From: Planctomycetaceae bacterium
GTDB taxonomy: Bacteria; Planctomycetota; Planctomycetia; Pirellulales; Pirellulaceae
Direction: 5' to 3'
DNA length: 42,861 nt
Assembly: GCA_003233175.1 (NCBI GenBank)
Contig: QIKY01000373.1
Span: 1 to 42,861, forward strand
The notes under the pieces were generated by a model. The model was not told the origin of the DNA and searched no databases. It worked only from the letters and a program-made list of their open reading frames with translations. Below, one piece after another: positions 24,329 through 42,432 of this stretch; position 1 is the first letter of the stretch, and the number at the start of each line of letters is the position of its first letter. Position numbers and translations under genes: made by a program.

Positions 24329-25690
24329 ATGTCGACCAAGGTAGGATTACGAGTTTCGCTGTTTCTTCTGGTTTTGGCCGTGCCATTTTCCAGTCCTGGC
24401 GAGGCGAATGCAGGTCCGTTCCTAGACTGGCTCTTCGGCCGCCCGACGTACTACTACGCACCCGTGCAGCCCGTCGTGGTGCAACAGCCGATTGTGGCGG
24501 CGCGGCCGATTGGAGCGCCGCGATATGCCGTGCAACGCCCTGTCCTTTCGCAGCCCGTCCTTTCGCAGCCCGTCCTTTCGCAGCCCGTCCTTTCGCAGCC
24601 CGTCGCTATTCAACCTACGGTGGCGCTGCGGCCATTTGCGACCCAGAGTTACGTTGTACAACGTCCGGCGGCGCCCGCTTACGCTACTCAAGCGTACGCT
24701 GTGCAGCCGCGCGTCGTTCAATACGCGCCCGTTCAATATGCCGCAGTTCCCGTCTTTCGCACCATGTGGTTCCGAGCCCCGGTGACCTATTACCGGCCAG
24801 TTGCGGCGCCCGTTTCGCCTGCATCGGTGGTCGTCCCCGCAGCCAGCCCAACCACAACCTACTACGGCGGTTGCACGGCGCAACAATGGCAAGTGCGGCG
24901 ACTGCCGACAACCTACGTGGCGCCTGCCGTTGTGGCGCCGGGCGCGCTTGCGGCGCCAAGCTATCCGGCAACGGGCTACCCCAGCCAACCCGCCGCGACG
25001 CCTCCCGCGGGTTTTCAACCGGCGCCGTTTTCTCTGGCAGCGCCGCCCAGCGGGCCGTCCACGCACCTGGCGCCCGCCGACCAAGCACCAACATTGAATA
25101 AACCCGTCCACGACGGCGGCACAAACGCCGCTGAACGCAATTCGTTCGGCGCCGAAGGCCGACGCAGTAACGAATCGCCCGCCGCTCCGGCGGCAGGTGA
25201 TATCCCACCGGCCGCACACGATCAGGGCGACGATGGTCACGATCATGGCGACGACGGCCATGCAGGACACAGCCACGGCGCGGCCGCATTGCCAAAGAGC
25301 ATACCCTCGCAAGCGGTTCTCACTCCGGTGCGTAAGCCGAGCAGCGGCGCCGCCACGGGCGAGCAAGGTCTGCGTCCGACGCCAGATCGTTCACATCGCT
25401 CGCTACGCCTCCTGCCCGACCCCGATTGGCGCCGCGAATCGCCCGCCGCGCCGCCTCTGAACGAGCCGGAAGATCGCACGGCCCGAAATCGGCAGCCGAC
25501 CTCGAAGTTCGCGGAAATCATGCGGCGCGCTGAATCTGCGCAGACGGCCAAGGTGGTGCGGTATTCCAAAATCGGTCGTCCGGTCGGGGAGTCGATTCGT
25601 CAGGTGAGCGCTCAAATCGCGACGCCCTCGCCGCTGAACGGCCGCATCGATCAGAACGACAGCGGCTGGCGTTCGGCTCGCAGCCGTTAG
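24329..25690 (+). CDS. Secreted Pro/Tyr/Ala-rich protein with pentapeptide repeats and His/Asp cluster
   Basis: A 453-aa protein. Residues 1-30 are a signal peptide (KVGLRVSLFLLVLAVPFSSPGEANAGP), followed by FLDWLFGRPTYYYAPVQPVV, a typical start of planctomycete surface proteins. QPVLS is repeated four times (about 70-90). A long region rich in Pro, Ala, Tyr, Val and Gln follows. Around residue 300 a metal-binding-like cluster appears (DQGDDGHDHGDDGHAGHSHG). The C-terminus is Arg/Pro-rich and likely disordered. ATG 24329 has GGGGTG upstream; the frame opens from TTG 24287 without a ribosome site. No known domain. Probably exported and disordered; a cell-wall or metal-related role is a guess. 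Confidence 0.8.
   Translation: MSTKVGLRVSLFLLVLAVPFSSPGEANAGPFLDWLFGRPTYYYAPVQPVVVQQPIVAARPIGAPRYAVQRPVLSQPVLSQPVLSQPVLSQPVAIQPTVALRPFATQSYVVQRPAAPAYATQAYAVQPRVVQYAPVQYAAVPVFRTMWFRAPVTYYRPVAAPVSPASVVVPAASPTTTYYGGCTAQQWQVRRLPTTYVAPAVVAPGALAAPSYPATGYPSQPAATPPAGFQPAPFSLAAPPSGPSTHLAPADQAPTLNKPVHDGGTNAAERNSFGAEGRRSNESPAAPAAGDIPPAAHDQGDDGHDHGDDGHAGHSHGAAALPKSIPSQAVLTPVRKPSSGAATGEQGLRPTPDRSHRSLRLLPDPDWRRESPAAPPLNEPEDRTARNRQPTSKFAEIMRRAESAQTAKVVRYSKIGRPVGESIRQVSAQIATPSPLNGRIDQNDSGWRSARSR
24536..24604 (+). repeat. 15-bp tandem repeat coding QPVLS
   Basis: The unit CAGCCCGTCCTTTCG is present three times exactly (24551-24595), preceded by a variant copy (24536-24550) and followed by a partial one. It encodes QPVLS. 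Exact repeats at third codon positions suggest recent expansion. Confidence 0.92.
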
Positions 25691-26106
25691 TCGCTACGGC
25701 CCACATGCTTTGTTCGCTGGTATCCGTTCACGGGTTTGGCGCCGCCGGATAAATAGCGATCACCTTTCCAGGCGCCGCTGGCGGAAGTCCAGACTTTGCT
25801 CGGCGGTTTCCACGTGCATTTCAACGCAAAGGTGCGGAGGGCCGTGGAAGAAAACCTCCGCTCGGCTCAAAAGAGGGTCCTTTCAAGAAACACCGCTCCC
25901 TTTGTCGAGCCCGAACCGAGGCGGGCATGAGGCGCCGACATACCGGAACGACCCATTCTACCTCAATCGGTTTGAGATATTACTTTTGCACTGGGCACGA
26001 TGCGACTTTGTCAGTCCTTACCGTGCGGGGTATAAGTCGAACCTGCTGGATGACGCAGACGCAGCGCCGAAATGTCGGGACAGTGGGCCGGCCCTGGCCC
26101 CGGCGA
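25691..26106. other. Gap with no supported gene
   Basis: A 416-bp space between the Pro-rich gene (plus) and the acidic-repeat gene (minus). Long frames here continue into the satellite on the plus strand and have no ribosome site. No hairpin terminator with a T-run is obvious. Confidence 0.45.
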
Positions 26107-26622
26107 TCAATCCTCGTCATCCCAAGCCTCATCTTCTAGGTCATCATCTTCGAGGTCATCGTCTTCGAGGTCATCGTCTTCGAGGTCATCGTCTTCGAGG
26201 TCATCGTCTTCGAGGTCATCGTCTTCGAGGTCATCATCTTCTAGGTCATCATCTTCGAGGTCATCATCTTCGAGGTCATCATCTTCGAGGTCATCATCTT
26301 CGAGGTCATCATCTTCGAGGTCATCGTCTTCGAGGTCATCGTCTTCGAGGTCATCATCTTCGAGGTCATCGTCGTCGAGGTCATCGTCGTCGACTTCTTC
26401 CCAAGCGTCGAATTCCTCATCGTCATCAACTTTGTCGTTATCGCCCTCAACTTCATCGCCTTCGATTTTATCGCCCTCGATGGTTTCCCATTCTTCTTCG
26501 TCTTCGACATCTTCATATTCCCATTCTCCGTCGCCCTCGTCTTCCGCCGCAATATCATCGGCAAGACCGAAAGGCGCGATGGTTGTTTCTTCATCTTGGT
26601 GCTTAACAATGCTGAAAGTCAT
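26107..26622 (-). CDS. Extremely acidic LEDDD-repeat protein
   Basis: A 171-aa protein. The N-terminal 70 residues are unique and acidic (MTFSIVKHQDEETTIAPFGL, ADDIAAEDEGDGEWEYEDVEDEEEWE). The rest is about 17 nearly identical pentads, LEDDD, ending in EDEAWDDED. The ribosome site GGAAGGAG at 6 nt from ATG 26622 argues that it is really translated, and the unique head argues against a satellite artefact. The plus-strand frame through the same DNA (RSSSS repeats) has neither. Charge density implies a disordered polyanion able to bind divalent cations or basic proteins; no function is known. The gene follows scpB on the same strand after about 350 bp. Confidence 0.72.
   Translation of the reverse strand: MTFSIVKHQDEETTIAPFGLADDIAAEDEGDGEWEYEDVEDEEEWETIEGDKIEGDEVEGDNDKVDDDEEFDAWEEVDDDDLDDDDLEDDDLEDDDLEDDDLEDDDLEDDDLEDDDLEDDDLEDDDLEDDDLEDDDLEDDDLEDDDLEDDDLEDDDLEDDDLEDEAWDDED
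26138..26392 (-). repeat. 15-bp satellite, about 17 units
   Basis: On the plus strand the unit is GAGGTCATCGTCTTC with single-base variants (CATCATC versus CATCGTC, TCTAGG versus TCGAGG). Every unit is 15 bp so the reading frame is preserved, giving LEDDD. Variants are silent or conservative (Asp codons GAT/GAC), which points to selection on the protein. Confidence 0.92.
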
Positions 26623-29953: not shown

Positions 29954-29974
29954 CCGTAGACTAGATCGCACCCA

Positions 29975-30026
29975 CCGTTGGAGTTCATGCTTTAGCATGT
30001 TTGATTGCGCCGTTGGAGTTCATGCT
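29975..30026. repeat. GTTGGAGTTCATGC family: two left half-copies
   Basis: CCGTTGGAGTTCATGCTTTA (29975-) and GCGCCGTTGGAGTTCATGCT (30007-30026) are direct half-copies of the dispersed palindromic family. Their matching right halves are the two copies at 30262-30322, about 250 bp away, so a full unit seems to have been split by the composite palindrome between them. Confidence 0.85.
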
Positions 30027-30043
30027 ATATTCTGTTCCATCTG

Positions 30044-30239
30044 TTGGCCGAAGGCCAAGTTCACCGTAGCCTGGGGCATCGCCCCAGGTACGATGGCCGA
30101 CCCCGTTCGTTTGGCCGAAGGCCTTATTCACATCCTGCAAGATGGCGGGTGAACTTGGCCTTCGGCCAAACAAATGGATGTCGTATTTTATTCCTGGGGC
30201 GATGCCCCAGGCTACGGTGAAAAAAGGCCTTCGGCCAAA
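30044..30239. repeat. Composite nested palindrome
   Basis: Outer arms TTGGCCGAAGGCC (30044-30056) and GGCCTTCGGCCAA (30226-30238). Inside them, a 28-bp arm at 30061-30088 is the exact reverse complement of 30193-30220, and each arm itself contains the dyad CTGGGGCATCGCCCCAG. Inside that, a second GTTTGGCCGAAGGCC (30109-30123) pairs with GGCCTTCGGCCAAAC (30157-30171), with TTCAC/GTGAA next to them. The whole block can fold as nested hairpins and codes for nothing. Confidence 0.88.
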
Positions 30240-30261
30240 TGAAACATTGCGAAAACTAATC

Positions 30262-30322
30262 AAGCGTACACTCCAACGGCGCGGTGAAAGAAAGCACACT
30301 AAAGTGTGAACTCCAACGGCGC
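30262..30322. repeat. GTTGGAGTTCATGC family: two right half-copies
   Basis: AAGCGTACACTCCAACGGCGC (30262-30282, shown as the reverse arm) and CACACTAAAGTGTGAACTCC... to 30322 are right half-copies of the family. The frame of the next gene is open through them, which artificially extends it upstream to 30284. Confidence 0.85.
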
Positions 30323-30373
30323 GGCCAAAGGAAAACCACGCTCAAACGCACACCTCATCACTCTTTGATCTTT

Positions 30374-32239: not shown

Positions 32240-32250
32240 CAGCTTCCGCA

Positions 32251-32328
32251 CCGTTGGAGTTCATGCTTTAGCATGTTTTCTTCTGAGTGCTCATACAAAC
32301 AGCCTGAAGGCTGAACGCCAACGGCGCG
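32251..32328. repeat. GTTGGAGTTCATGC family copy after the acyl-activating gene
   Basis: Left arm CCGTTGGAGTTCATGCTTTA from 32251, then AGCATGTTTT; the diverged right arm AGCCTGAAGGCTGAACGCCA continues to ACGGCGC (32301-32328). It fills the convergent gap between that gene and pntB and could serve as a terminator. Confidence 0.85.
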
Positions 32329-32355
32329 GCCTGCGCATCGTGGAACCTATCGAGG

Positions 32356-35604: not shown

Positions 35605-35983
35605 CGATGCGCCCCGCGATTCAACCCGGCATGCTTCACGCGGCTAGCAATGGCTCGTTTAACGGCAAGCCGAAGGCGACTGCGTTTTTCTGTATTGCTC
35701 GAACGGATCGGCACAAAACACAGTCGCCTTCGGCTTGCCGTTAAACGAAAAATGCGACAGTTTCAACCGGGAGCAGCATAGCAGGCAAGTGGAAGGATGC
35801 CGGATTCTTACATAAACCCCACACTTTGAGTACCCGACTTGCGTCGAAGCAGCGTTGCCGGTACATTGGCGAATTCGGAAATAGCGGTTCTTCACCGTTG
35901 CGCGGGCAAACTGTCAAGCAACCGGCAAACATACAGCGACTCATTTTTATACAGAGCGTCGGCGACGCGGGAGTACAGGAATC
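35605..35983. promoter_or_regulatory. Divergent promoter region of pntAA and rplM
   Basis: A 379-bp gap containing the long palindrome at 35656-35747. The remainder (35750-35983) must hold the ribosomal-protein promoter and leader; an AT-rich spot CATTTTTATACAGAG near 35941-35955 is a candidate -10. No leader structure can be assigned reliably. Confidence 0.35.
35656..35747. repeat. Long inverted repeat, 27-bp perfect arms
   Basis: 35656-35682 is the exact reverse complement of 35721-35747 (core AAGCCGAAGGCGACTG / CAGTCGCCTTCGGCTT). One mismatch further in, pairing resumes for about four to five bp, leaving a loop of roughly 30 nt with short T- and A-runs. It codes for nothing and lies upstream of pntAA and rplM. 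Palindrome or MITE-like. Confidence 0.9.
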
Positions 35984-36947: not shown

Positions 36948-37042
36948 GAATAGTGGATACGTCGTGTTTGCGGCGAATCGGGCGGATGCTGGCCGAGCAT
37001 GCCCGCCAGCGGCAGGACGAACTGAAAAGTTTGAATATCTCG

Positions 37043-37075
37043 AAAACGACGAGCAGCGATGCTCGTCGTTTTTTT
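37043..37075 (+). terminator. Strong factor-independent terminator of rplM-rpsI
   Basis: ACGACGAGC-agcgat-GCTCGTCGT forms a perfect 9-bp stem and is followed by TTTTTTT. It lies 100 bp after the rpsI stop. The long methylase frame is open across it, which suggests the true methylase start is downstream. Confidence 0.93.
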
Positions 37076-37096
37076 GTCGACCCGTCCGCCGAAAAT

Positions 37097-39790
37097 GTGA
37101 CGCATGACCATTCGGCGCGGGTGAGTTTGGCGCAAGGCGCCGCCTTCCTGCAATTCTCGCGAAGTTTGGTCGAGACGGGGCGGCTTTCCCAGCGGGCGCT
37201 GGCTTGGGCGCTGGCGCCGGCGGAATCGTCGTCCGAATACGCCTGTTGCCAATTTCTGCAAGAAGCCGAGCTGCCGACCGCGCGGCGGGAGAGCCAGCGG
37301 CGCGAACTAGCGGACGCAATGGAGAAAATTTTCACCTCCTCCTCTGCCGATAAATCGCACATCGCCTGGGCAATTCCCACCATCGTGGAAAGTTTTCTGG
37401 CCGAAGCCAATGCGCGGGCGCGGCGGCGGCGGGGCGTTTATTACACGCCTCCCGAACTGGCGAGGTTCGTGATTCGCGGCGTCGATTCGCAGTTGGCCTC
37501 TCAATTCCAACTGGCCGATGGCTTGGCAAGCGCCGTTGGAGTTCACGCTTTAGCGTGCGTCCGAGACGAAAACACGCTAAAGCGTGAACTCCAACGGCGC
37601 GCGGCAAAGCGCATTCCTGCCGATGCAGCGCCCTTTGTCCGTTTGCTCGATCCCGCCGTGGGCAGCGGCGCGTTTTTGCTGGCTGCGGTGGAATGCATTG
37701 GCGGGCGGTTGGCCGAGAAATGGGAGCGCGTCAAGGAAAACAAGGAGCACGCGGCGCGGTGGTGGGCATCGCAATGGAACGCACAACTGCAATCCAAACT
37801 GACCGGCTTCGAGATTTCCCGCCTTCAGGCGATGATGGCCCGCGTCGCCTTGGCCGTGATGTTGGAACATTGGCATTATCAATTCATCGACGCGCCGCCC
37901 TGCCCGATTTACGTCGCCGATTCGCTAGCGGGTCCTAATTCGGGGCGGGCGCCAGAGCTTCCAGCCACGGTGATCGTGGGCAATCCGCCGTTCGCGGCGA
38001 TATCGGCCAATCGCTCCGCCTGGATCCAACAGCTATTGCGCGGCGACGATGGCGAGCGTGGCGATCTGGCGAATTACTATCAAATCGATGGCCAACCGTT
38101 GGGCGAGCGGAAACTTTGGCTGCAAGATGATTACGTCAAGTTCATGCGTTACGCGCAGTGGCACATTGAACGGGCGGGACGCGGTATCGTGGCGCTCGTG
38201 ACCAACCATGGCTATTTGGATAACCCCACGTTTCGCGGCATGCGGCAACAGTTGCTCAAGACGTTTCCCGCGATGCAAATCGTGAACCTGCACGGCAATT
38301 CCCGCGCGGCGCGGTGCGGCTCTTCCAGTGAACGCGACGAAAACGTCTTCGCCATCGAACAAGGGGTTTCGGTCGGTTTTTTTAGCCGCGATGCTGGGCA
38401 ACCGGTTGCCCGGGTTCGCTATGGCGAACTGCGAGGCGCGCGAAAACACAAACTGGCGCGGCTCGATTCCACCACGCCCGACGATCTGGCCGCGCGGGAG
38501 CTGTCGCCGAAATCTCCCTTGTATTTGTTCTGTCCTCGCGACGAAACGGCCGACCAGGAATTTCGCTCGGGGTTCTCTCTCGAACAGGTCATGCCGGAGA
38601 ACGTGACAGCGCCCGTCACGGCGCGCGATCATTTGGTGGTGGCGATGAGCCGCGAGGAACTTGTGGCGAGAATCGAACAGTTTTGCGATTCCAAAACGAG
38701 CGATGCACAAATACGGCGCCACTTTTTTCCCCGTCCTCGCAGCCATAAATATCCCGCCGGCGATACGCGCGGCTGGCGTTTGGCCGATGCCCGGCGTTGG
38801 CTGCAACAAAGCGAGCAATGGCGCCGCTGCATTCGGCCTTGTTGGTACCGGCCGTTCGACCAGCGAATGATTTTGTGGTGCGAGCAAATGATCGACTGGC
38901 CGCGCGGCGAACTGATCAATCAGTTGATCAAGGGGCAAGAGACCGACAACGAAAGCAAGCATGTCGACCAAGCCGGATTCGAGACGTTGCAACTCGCGCT
39001 GATCGCACGGCGGCAAATTCCGCCCGCGCATCAGGCTCAATTCTTTTGGATCGTCGACGGCCTGACGCTCGACGGCGTGATACGCTCCGATAATCGCGGT
39101 TCGGAGTCGGTCTTTCCGCTGTATCGCTGCGAAACCCACGACGGCCAGCTTCAGCGCACGCTTAATTTTTCTCCCGAATTGCTGGCCGCCTACGCCGCCG
39201 CCCGTGGGCGACAAAACCGCACAACTCCGCTGGAAAACGATTTGCCTTTGGGGCGGGAGTTGCTCTGCGTGATTTACGCCGAGTTCTTTTCTCCGGCCTA
39301 TCGAAACCGATTCGCAGACTGTTTTCGAGCGGCGTTTCCACGTGTGTTCCCACCTAAGTCGGCCGAACTTTGCCAGACGCTCCATGCATTGGGAAGCCGT
39401 TTGATCGAACTTCATTTATTGCAAGCGGAGCAGATTCCCCAGTTGGCAAAGCTGGCTTGGGAAGGGCCCCGCGCGAGTGGACCGGCTTCGGCCAAGACAC
39501 GGCGGTTTCCCTATTGGGAGGCGGGACGAATCGCGCTCAACGCGGAATGTTCGCTCAACGGTGTTGACGAACCGACGTGGCGTTTCGGCGTGGGCGGCCA
39601 CCAGGTGTGCCGCAAATGGTTGAAAGATCGTCGCGGCGCGCCGCTGGGCGAAAAAGATCGCCACTTGTACCGCCGAATCGTGGCCTCGATCGCCGAGACG
39701 CTCGAAATCATGCCCTTGATCGACGCCGCAATTTCCGAGCATGGCGGTTGGCCCGACGCTTTTCAGAAAAACGTGGCGGCCGATAAGTGA
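37097..39790 (+). CDS. N6-adenine DNA methylase, type ISP/IIG-like
   Basis: A large methyltransferase of about 897 aa from GTG 37097. The frame is open from GTG 36953, but a perfect terminator at 37043-37075 lies inside it, so a later start is likely (GTG 37097 or 37121). Order: helical N-terminal region; RRGVYYTPPELARFVIRGV (typical of N6-methylases); an in-frame palindromic repeat; SAM motif I LLDPAVGSGAFLLAAVE; FEISRLQAMMARVAL; catalytic motif IV IVGNPPFAA; VALVTNHGYLDNPTFRGMR; then a target-recognition region; C-terminal YRRIVASIAETLEIMPLID after GGHQVCRKWLKDRRG, which matches type ISP methylase-specificity proteins. No nuclease or helicase domain is visible, so it is probably an orphan or a modification-only enzyme. 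Confidence 0.85.
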   Translation: MTHDHSARVSLAQGAAFLQFSRSLVETGRLSQRALAWALAPAESSSEYACCQFLQEAELPTARRESQRRELADAMEKIFTSSSADKSHIAWAIPTIVESFLAEANARARRRRGVYYTPPELARFVIRGVDSQLASQFQLADGLASAVGVHALACVRDENTLKRELQRRAAKRIPADAAPFVRLLDPAVGSGAFLLAAVECIGGRLAEKWERVKENKEHAARWWASQWNAQLQSKLTGFEISRLQAMMARVALAVMLEHWHYQFIDAPPCPIYVADSLAGPNSGRAPELPATVIVGNPPFAAISANRSAWIQQLLRGDDGERGDLANYYQIDGQPLGERKLWLQDDYVKFMRYAQWHIERAGRGIVALVTNHGYLDNPTFRGMRQQLLKTFPAMQIVNLHGNSRAARCGSSSERDENVFAIEQGVSVGFFSRDAGQPVARVRYGELRGARKHKLARLDSTTPDDLAARELSPKSPLYLFCPRDETADQEFRSGFSLEQVMPENVTAPVTARDHLVVAMSREELVARIEQFCDSKTSDAQIRRHFFPRPRSHKYPAGDTRGWRLADARRWLQQSEQWRRCIRPCWYRPFDQRMILWCEQMIDWPRGELINQLIKGQETDNESKHVDQAGFETLQLALIARRQIPPAHQAQFFWIVDGLTLDGVIRSDNRGSESVFPLYRCETHDGQLQRTLNFSPELLAAYAAARGRQNRTTPLENDLPLGRELLCVIYAEFFSPAYRNRFADCFRAAFPRVFPPKSAELCQTLHALGSRLIELHLLQAEQIPQLAKLAWEGPRASGPASAKTRRFPYWEAGRIALNAECSLNGVDEPTWRFGVGGHQVCRKWLKDRRGAPLGEKDRHLYRRIVASIAETLEIMPLIDAAISEHGGWPDAFQKNVAADK
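37531..37599 (+). repeat. Intragenic palindrome of the GTTGGAGTTCAxGC family
   Basis: 37531-37557 is the exact reverse complement of 37573-37599 (27-bp arms, 15-nt loop CGTCCGAGACGAAAA). It has the same core as the intergenic copies (GCCGTTGGAGTTCACGCTTT). It keeps the reading frame and encodes roughly AVGVHALACVRDENTLKREL plus QRRA, between the YYTPPELARF helix and SAM motif I. Confidence 0.95.
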
Positions 39791-39831
39791 AACGATTTCG
39801 GGGTATGCCAAGCGGTTACATTTCAAGGTCT

Positions 39832-39975
39832 GCGCCGTTGGAGTTCATGCTTTAGCATGTTTTGTTTTTTGGCATCTTTTAAGGACCGCGAAAGCGACCC
39901 TCCTGTTCGCTTTATCTGTTTTTTAGGTGCGGTGGGTAGAAAGAAAACACGCTGAAGCGTACACTCCAACGGCGC
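39832..39975. repeat. GTTGGAGTTCATGC family copy between convergent genes
   Basis: Left arm GCGCCGTTGGAGTTCATGCT from 39832 then TTAGCATGTTTTG; right arm ACACGCTGAAGCGTACACTC...ACGGCGC (39947-39975). The loop is about 83 nt. It fills the gap between the methylase and ftsH, where a bidirectional terminator would be expected. Confidence 0.88.
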
Positions 39976-39999
39976 ACACCCAAGGGAACAAAACCAGAA

Positions 40000-42027: not shown

Positions 42028-42432
42028 GGAGAGTCTTTCAGAAAAAAATCGGCGAAGCTTCGACCCGAGCCGGCCGTTGGCGAGCTAAGGTTCCATTATA
42101 CTCTCCGGTTGAAAAACGATATCCCCTATATTGCGGGGGGCGATGTGGCGGGCAGCACACTTTTTCGGCGGCTTTTGGTTCTGCCAAGCGCCGTTGGAGT
42201 TCATGCTTCAGCATGTTTTGCAGTGCGAAGTACCTAAAAGACGAAAACACGCTGAAGCGTACACTCCAACGGTGGGCGGCGGTGTGAATGGCGGCGACGG
42301 CGAGAGCGCCGCCTTTCAGGGTTGCCGCCAAACGGGCGCCGCGCTAGAATGCCCTGGATGACCCGAACTTGAATGTTCAAGGGGGGTTACGGCTTATGTA
42401 TTATCGGCGGGCCCACGGCATGGCGTACGCAA
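42028..42432. promoter_or_regulatory. Divergent promoter region of ftsH and dxr, with a repeat
   Basis: A 405-bp gap containing the family repeat at 42188-42272. Promoters for ftsH (minus) and dxr (plus) must be here; CCATTATACTCTCC near 42093 (a TATACT-like -10) is a candidate. Small frames are shadows of the repeat. Confidence 0.4.
42188..42272. repeat. GTTGGAGTTCATGC family copy upstream of ftsH and dxr
   Basis: Left arm GCGCCGTTGGAGTTCATGCT from 42188, then TCAGCATGTTTT; right arm AACACGCTGAAGCGTACACT to CCAACGG (42246-42272). The TTCAGC / GCTGAA change is compensatory between the arms, which keeps pairing. Confidence 0.88.

Follow-up and report, generated by a model that had tools for sequence, protein, structure and literature searches.

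Dispersed palindromes that lie in frame within bacterial genes are already known. Rickettsia palindromic elements (RPEs; Ogata et al., 2000, 2002; reviewed in PMC10969869) are sequences of about 100-150 bp that sit in frame in unrelated protein genes and lengthen the products by some tens of residues. Dimers of GTAG/CGTC REPs encode 20-30 residues within ORFs of many species, with most copies being intergenic (Di Nocera et al., 2013; PMC3733652), and super-families of these repeats have also been reported in Planctomycetes and in the verrucomicrobium Opitutus terrae (PMC3733652). Bacterial MITEs, too, can be fused in frame to genes, as in the case of ERIC and of the QMITEs of Coxiella (PMC5896051).

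Here, we describe an in-frame palindrome in a DNA methylase gene of a Planctomycetaceae bacterium. The window, i.e., the whole stretch of DNA analysed (42,861 nucleotides), makes up contig C5 of the genome (G000), which totals 5.99 Mb in 440 contigs. Like RPEs, the repeat is a dispersed palindrome found in frame within unrelated genes, here three, but it occurs in another phylum and has different ends, most of its sampled copies are intergenic, and its ends match an identifiable insertion sequence (IS). The likeness is probably one of analogy rather than family membership; to our knowledge, the mobiliser of RPEs is not known. Like the GTAG/CGTC REPs, the palindrome adds a short peptide inside an ORF; unlike them, it lacks GTAG, has CGTC in a single subfamily only, within the loop, and sits within a longer MITE with terminal inverted repeats. 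With QMITE/ERIC-type MITEs it shares terminal inverted repeats, an apparently IS-derived and non-autonomous nature and occasional in-frame gene fusion, whereas its palindromic core, three interior insertions in the same frame and element-free sister sites set it apart. The planctomycete case thus behaves like RPEs and intragenic REPs, and provides an unusually clean demonstration.

Results

The host gene (36953..39790, plus strand) encodes, as judged from its open reading frame and Pfam matches, an N6-adenine DNA methylase of 945 aa with a Type ISP C-terminal specificity domain (Type_ISP_C, E 3.3e-48; N6_Mtase, E 7.9e-6). Its start is called at GTG 36953, and the true start may lie further downstream. 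Neither a helicase nor a nuclease domain was detected in the ORF 36953-39790, and the gene is therefore filed only as a methylase with Type_ISP_C. A repeat search located the core palindrome in this gene: a left arm of 27 bp (37531..37557, plus strand) and a right arm of 27 bp (37573..37599, minus strand), separated by a 15-nt loop (37558..37572, plus strand), with 24-nt arm cores enclosing the subfamily spacer CGTCCGAGACGAAAA. The preliminary description was accurate on this architecture: the arms are exact reverse complements, they lie between YYTPPEL and motif I (DPAVGSGAFL), and the 945-codon frame is open through the whole palindrome. Imperfect pairing reaches beyond the 27-bp arms, out to 37523-37607, and the folded RNA has a predicted energy of -66.5 kcal/mol against -30.5 +/- 3.0 kcal/mol for shuffled sequences (z -12).

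Comparison with a sister genome of the same genus (G001) defines the inserted segment. The orthologous methylase lacks exactly 93 bp at 37526-37618 (plus strand; boundaries from the alignment, +/- few bases), its sequence there being GATGGCCTA-GCCGATGCAG as against GATGGCTTG-[93 bp]-GCCGATGCAG in the window; gene order is the same and the methylase flanks are collinear on both sides at about 90-95% DNA identity. In the protein, GLADAAPLV of the sister corresponds to GLA(31 residues)DAAPFV, the 31 codons being residues 192-222, ASAVGVHALACVRDENTLKRELQRRAAKRIP. The gain is hence larger than the palindrome itself and exceeds the 24 or so residues first estimated. On either side of the palindrome, comparison with other copies identified a remnant of the left part of a MITE (..GCCAAGC; 37526..37530, plus strand), the left terminal repeat being absent, and a remnant of its right end (37600..37618, plus strand; consensus GTGGGCGGCAAAGTGCGTTCCTGCACCC minus the last few bases), the bases 3' of the right arm, GCGCGCGGCAAAGCGCATTCCTGC, corresponding to the MITE right end. 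Since both the palindrome and its flanking bases match the element, the whole 93 bp is element-derived. The methylase copy shows no visible target-site duplication. A misjoined repeat within the methylase contig might produce a similar picture in a fragmented assembly with hundreds of near-identical repeats, but the sequence on either side of the insert is collinear with that of the sister, the frame is maintained exactly and in-frame copies occur in two more genes, which makes such an artefact very unlikely.

Did the element arrive in the window lineage, or did the sister lose it? In distant methylase homologues, this linker comprises about 25 residues (typically TWxEMxxR...IPxGA), in others only a few, implying that the site tolerates length change. 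The preliminary description had asked whether repeat-free homologues share the added residues: their length is indeed similar in distant homologues, but their sequence is unrelated to the element, and the closest homologue has no such residues. One might argue from the length of the distant linkers, and from the two residues left in the sister, that the insertion is ancestral and was deleted by the sister, or that the sister replaced a native linker. We consider this distinctly improbable, given that the native residues show no similarity to the element, that no element remnant is present at the sister site and that the sister is also devoid of most compared copies elsewhere. The simplest reading is a short linker in the common ancestor of the pair, and the methylase insertion would then be recent, postdating the split from the sister, in line with the recent event proposed earlier.

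The arm is not unique, in keeping with the initial view of a dispersed repeat. An arm pattern allowing <=2 mismatches gave 209+238 = 447 matches in the window genome (reversed control, 0), 180 in the sister, 166 in a member of another genus (G024) and 0 or 2 in nine other family members. The form with 15-nt spacing was searched in 240 family genomes, every palindrome matching once on each strand: the window genome has 20 copies and the sister 5, and the remaining 238 genomes gave no match. None of the 166 arm matches of G024 has the 15-nt-loop form, so the core palindrome may predate the MITE or have a wider distribution than it. Within the window, the remaining family copies are intergenic, as originally noted (all plus strand): a cluster of arms at 29969..30327 (29969-30041 and 30246-30327), a copy between convergent genes at 32245..32332, an inverted arm pair between the methylase and ftsH at 39829..39980 and a copy absent from the sister at 42185..42280.

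The window also contains other repeats. An intergenic inverted repeat at 35655-35748 (34-bp arms, 97%) is a different palindrome and is identical over its whole length in the sister. An intergenic cluster that combines several types of palindrome includes perfect 29-bp inverted arms, TTCACCGTAGCCTGGGGCATCGCCCCAGG, with a separation of 104 bp (30060-30221). At 26069-26473, a 15-bp tandem repeat, TCATCGTCTTCGAGG, is present about 19 times; it overlaps open frames and apparently encodes an acidic repeat on the minus strand, and CCCGTCCTTTCGCAG occurs four times in tandem inside an open frame at 24539-24613.

Alignment of 48 copies, a sample of those in the genome, placed the palindrome in the middle of a longer element. 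Complete copies measure 147-151 bp, begin GGTGYRGGAACGCACTTTTTAGGCGGCGGCGTCTGCCGCATCC.., finish ..GTGGGCGGCAAAGTGCGTTCCYGCACC and run GGTGYRGGAACGCACTTTTTAGGC...AAAGTGCGTTCCYGCACC; terminal inverted repeats, GGTGYRGGAACGCACTTT / AAAGTGCGTTCCYGCACC, are present in the full copies L051, L052 and L003, and the methylase copy lacks the left one. The core contains stops in four of six frames and is open in two. The sister site is empty at most of 29 compared loci, and a 9-bp duplication, putatively of the target site, was seen at one clean locus (L054) and a 6-bp overlap at L060. We therefore classify the element as a MITE whose sequence and lineage are new within the reach of our searches. At two loci (L070 and L074, on contigs C28 and C57 of the window genome), the MITE is nested in a larger element (about 420 bp; ends resembling CTGTCCAAGATCTATTCCGTGCAATGG) that has a 6-bp duplication and empty sister sites.

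Which enzyme might mobilise the element? The 18-bp terminal repeat of the MITE recurs in the sister about 90-140 bp from contig ends, where it opens a frame, MGKDAQKSVVLTGVAKKKFDECVAALAACGF, on one side and closes a frame, ..LKKHMQSRPGNPFRPNVKIKSAATAA, on the other. The IS ends in this genome, GGGTGCAGGAACGCACTTTGCCGCC / GGGTGCAGGAACGCACTTTTTAGGC, match the MITE right and left ends, respectively: the right end corresponds to the start side of the IS (GCACTTTGCCGCC) and the left end to its stop side (GCACTTTTTAGGC). Because both ends match side for side, we infer that the MITE was very probably moved in trans by this IS, which is known from end pieces only. Assemblers halt inside high-copy identical repeats, and contigs therefore end there. 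Sister contigs C5, C13, C14, C20, C34, C38, C107 and others break off 90-140 bp into this IS, which makes a high copy number probable; a complete IS seems to be absent from the assembly. No IS copy was seen in the window genome at the search sensitivity used, no Pfam or NCBIfam model matched the end peptides, and a plasmid match was not found. ISKra4 was tried as the IS family and discarded, its model giving one weak match in the window genome and none in the sister.

Alternatively, the core could be a REPIN, i.e., two inverse REP sequences moved by a RAYT (Y1) transposase, as suggested by its two inverted hairpins and by the five Y1_Tnp genes of the genome. Yet the flanks of Y1 genes are armless at six of seven loci, the seventh having one distant single arm, and nowhere are they flanked by inverted arms; mobilisation by RAYT was rejected on this basis. 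The arm, CGCCGTTGGAGTTCACGCTTTAGCGTG, is moreover free of the GTAG signature, and the long terminal repeats and 9-bp duplication are better suited to a DDE-type IS. A REPIN origin is thus unlikely.

A search with the encoded peptide, followed by an open-frame check, uncovered two parallel interior insertions, of near-identical copies, in the window genome. One copy lies in frame in a gene for a 998-residue YfhO-like membrane protein (C192), to which it adds 37 codons, and another in a gene for a 525-residue protein with a MauE match (C27); the sister has neither. At the C27 point the sister has a VGLPAS tandem repeat, leaving the exact gain there undefined. In all three genes the element has the same orientation and frame, with the peptide AVGVHALACVRDENTLKRELQR and close variants, and the open frames indicate that it is probably translated in each; the three proteins have no domain in common. 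A borderline case is contig C133 (L197), where a short secretion-like ORF carries the element close to its N-terminus. Further peptide matches in long frames (a glmM-like gene on C197, a glpK-like gene on C67, frames on C237, C256, C101 and C290, and one on C409 of G024) are not interior insertions and were rejected because the element precedes the probable start or the frame looks non-coding. Among copies with both flanks located in the sister, 3/29 are gene-interior, in a set limited to those most similar to the window copy and in which in-frame cases are easier to spot; none of the other copies among the 29 resembled an insertion-broken gene. In-frame residence of a dispersed palindrome in the methylase is hence borne out, and the assertion that it is rare has to be tempered, given two more in-frame interior copies in this genome and the intragenic REPs and RPEs documented in other bacteria (PMC3733652, PMC10969869).

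Conceivably, the MITE itself has been shaped for translation, as a frame-neutral coding passenger that repeatedly donates one peptide module to Planctomycetota proteins. In the reading frame shared by the three genes, the complete copies L051 and L052 contain no stop from one end to the other, and adding a 9-bp duplication to 150 bp gives a length divisible by three. At this G+C, simple arithmetic predicts that about one in five frames of 50 codons is free of stops, so that one of the six should be open in any case. We regard this idea as doubtful.

Do the host genes benefit from the element? Measured between the window genome and the sister, and thus over both lineages together rather than for the insert-bearing allele alone, dN/dS was 0.29 for the methylase, 0.25 and 0.29 for the other two element-bearing genes and 0.05 for three neighbouring housekeeping-type genes (ftsH, rpsI and a pntA-like gene), suggesting that the element-bearing genes are maintained without strong constraint. 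An AlphaFold model of the methylase with its insert (mean pLDDT 80.8) has a confidently modelled methylase core, with pLDDT of about 45-66 in ten-residue blocks of the insert region and 88 and 91 in the bordering blocks, and the insert thus falls into a linker of low model confidence, outside the methylase fold, which is intact in the model. The preliminary description spoke of exaptation and, as one option, of selection for the hairpin. Under exaptation, the peptide or the RNA hairpin would be kept for a benefit to the methylase, such as tuning of translation or specificity. The very stable hairpin, the perfect arms with their preserved open frame and the recurrence of the same peptide in three proteins might be quoted in its support. 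However, the 24-nt arms have zero mismatches in 14/48 sampled copies, mostly intergenic, and one mismatch in many; perfect arms being so common, they point to a young family and not to selection at the methylase site. The low-confidence loop, the recent insertion and the lack of a domain common to the three hosts likewise speak against exaptation, and we see no sign of function in a linker whose length varies among homologues. Selection for the hairpin is accordingly not upheld, and exaptation appears very improbable.

Discussion

The reading that we favour, with a probability of roughly 85%, is that a short, left-truncated copy of the MITE inserted into the methylase linker and is carried as a translated passenger, the MITE having very probably been moved in trans by the IS. 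We envision a scenario whereby a genus-restricted MITE, about 150 bp long when complete and with a nested palindromic core, was mobilised by the IS and entered an accessory N6-methylase, in the linker that separates its N-terminal helices from motif I, once the two species had diverged. The ends of the element would have been trimmed before or after insertion, and the remaining 93 bp, a multiple of three, would be read in one of the two stop-free frames among the six of the core. Given this length and an open frame, the product would merely gain 31 residues in a flexible loop. Survival of the insertion might thus reflect purifying selection acting on its frame and its position, and not a benefit, such that MITE insertions persist in genes if they are short, in frame and located in a tolerant loop.

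How might selfish palindromes become protein? Our findings capture this conversion in three genes, each carrying the element in one genome and lacking it in the sister, and extend the phenomenon of protein-coding palindromes to a new lineage, together with a plausible IS source. The frequency with which such insertions survive becomes testable. For annotators, a corollary is that a peptide recurring in unrelated proteins may be a repeat rather than a domain.
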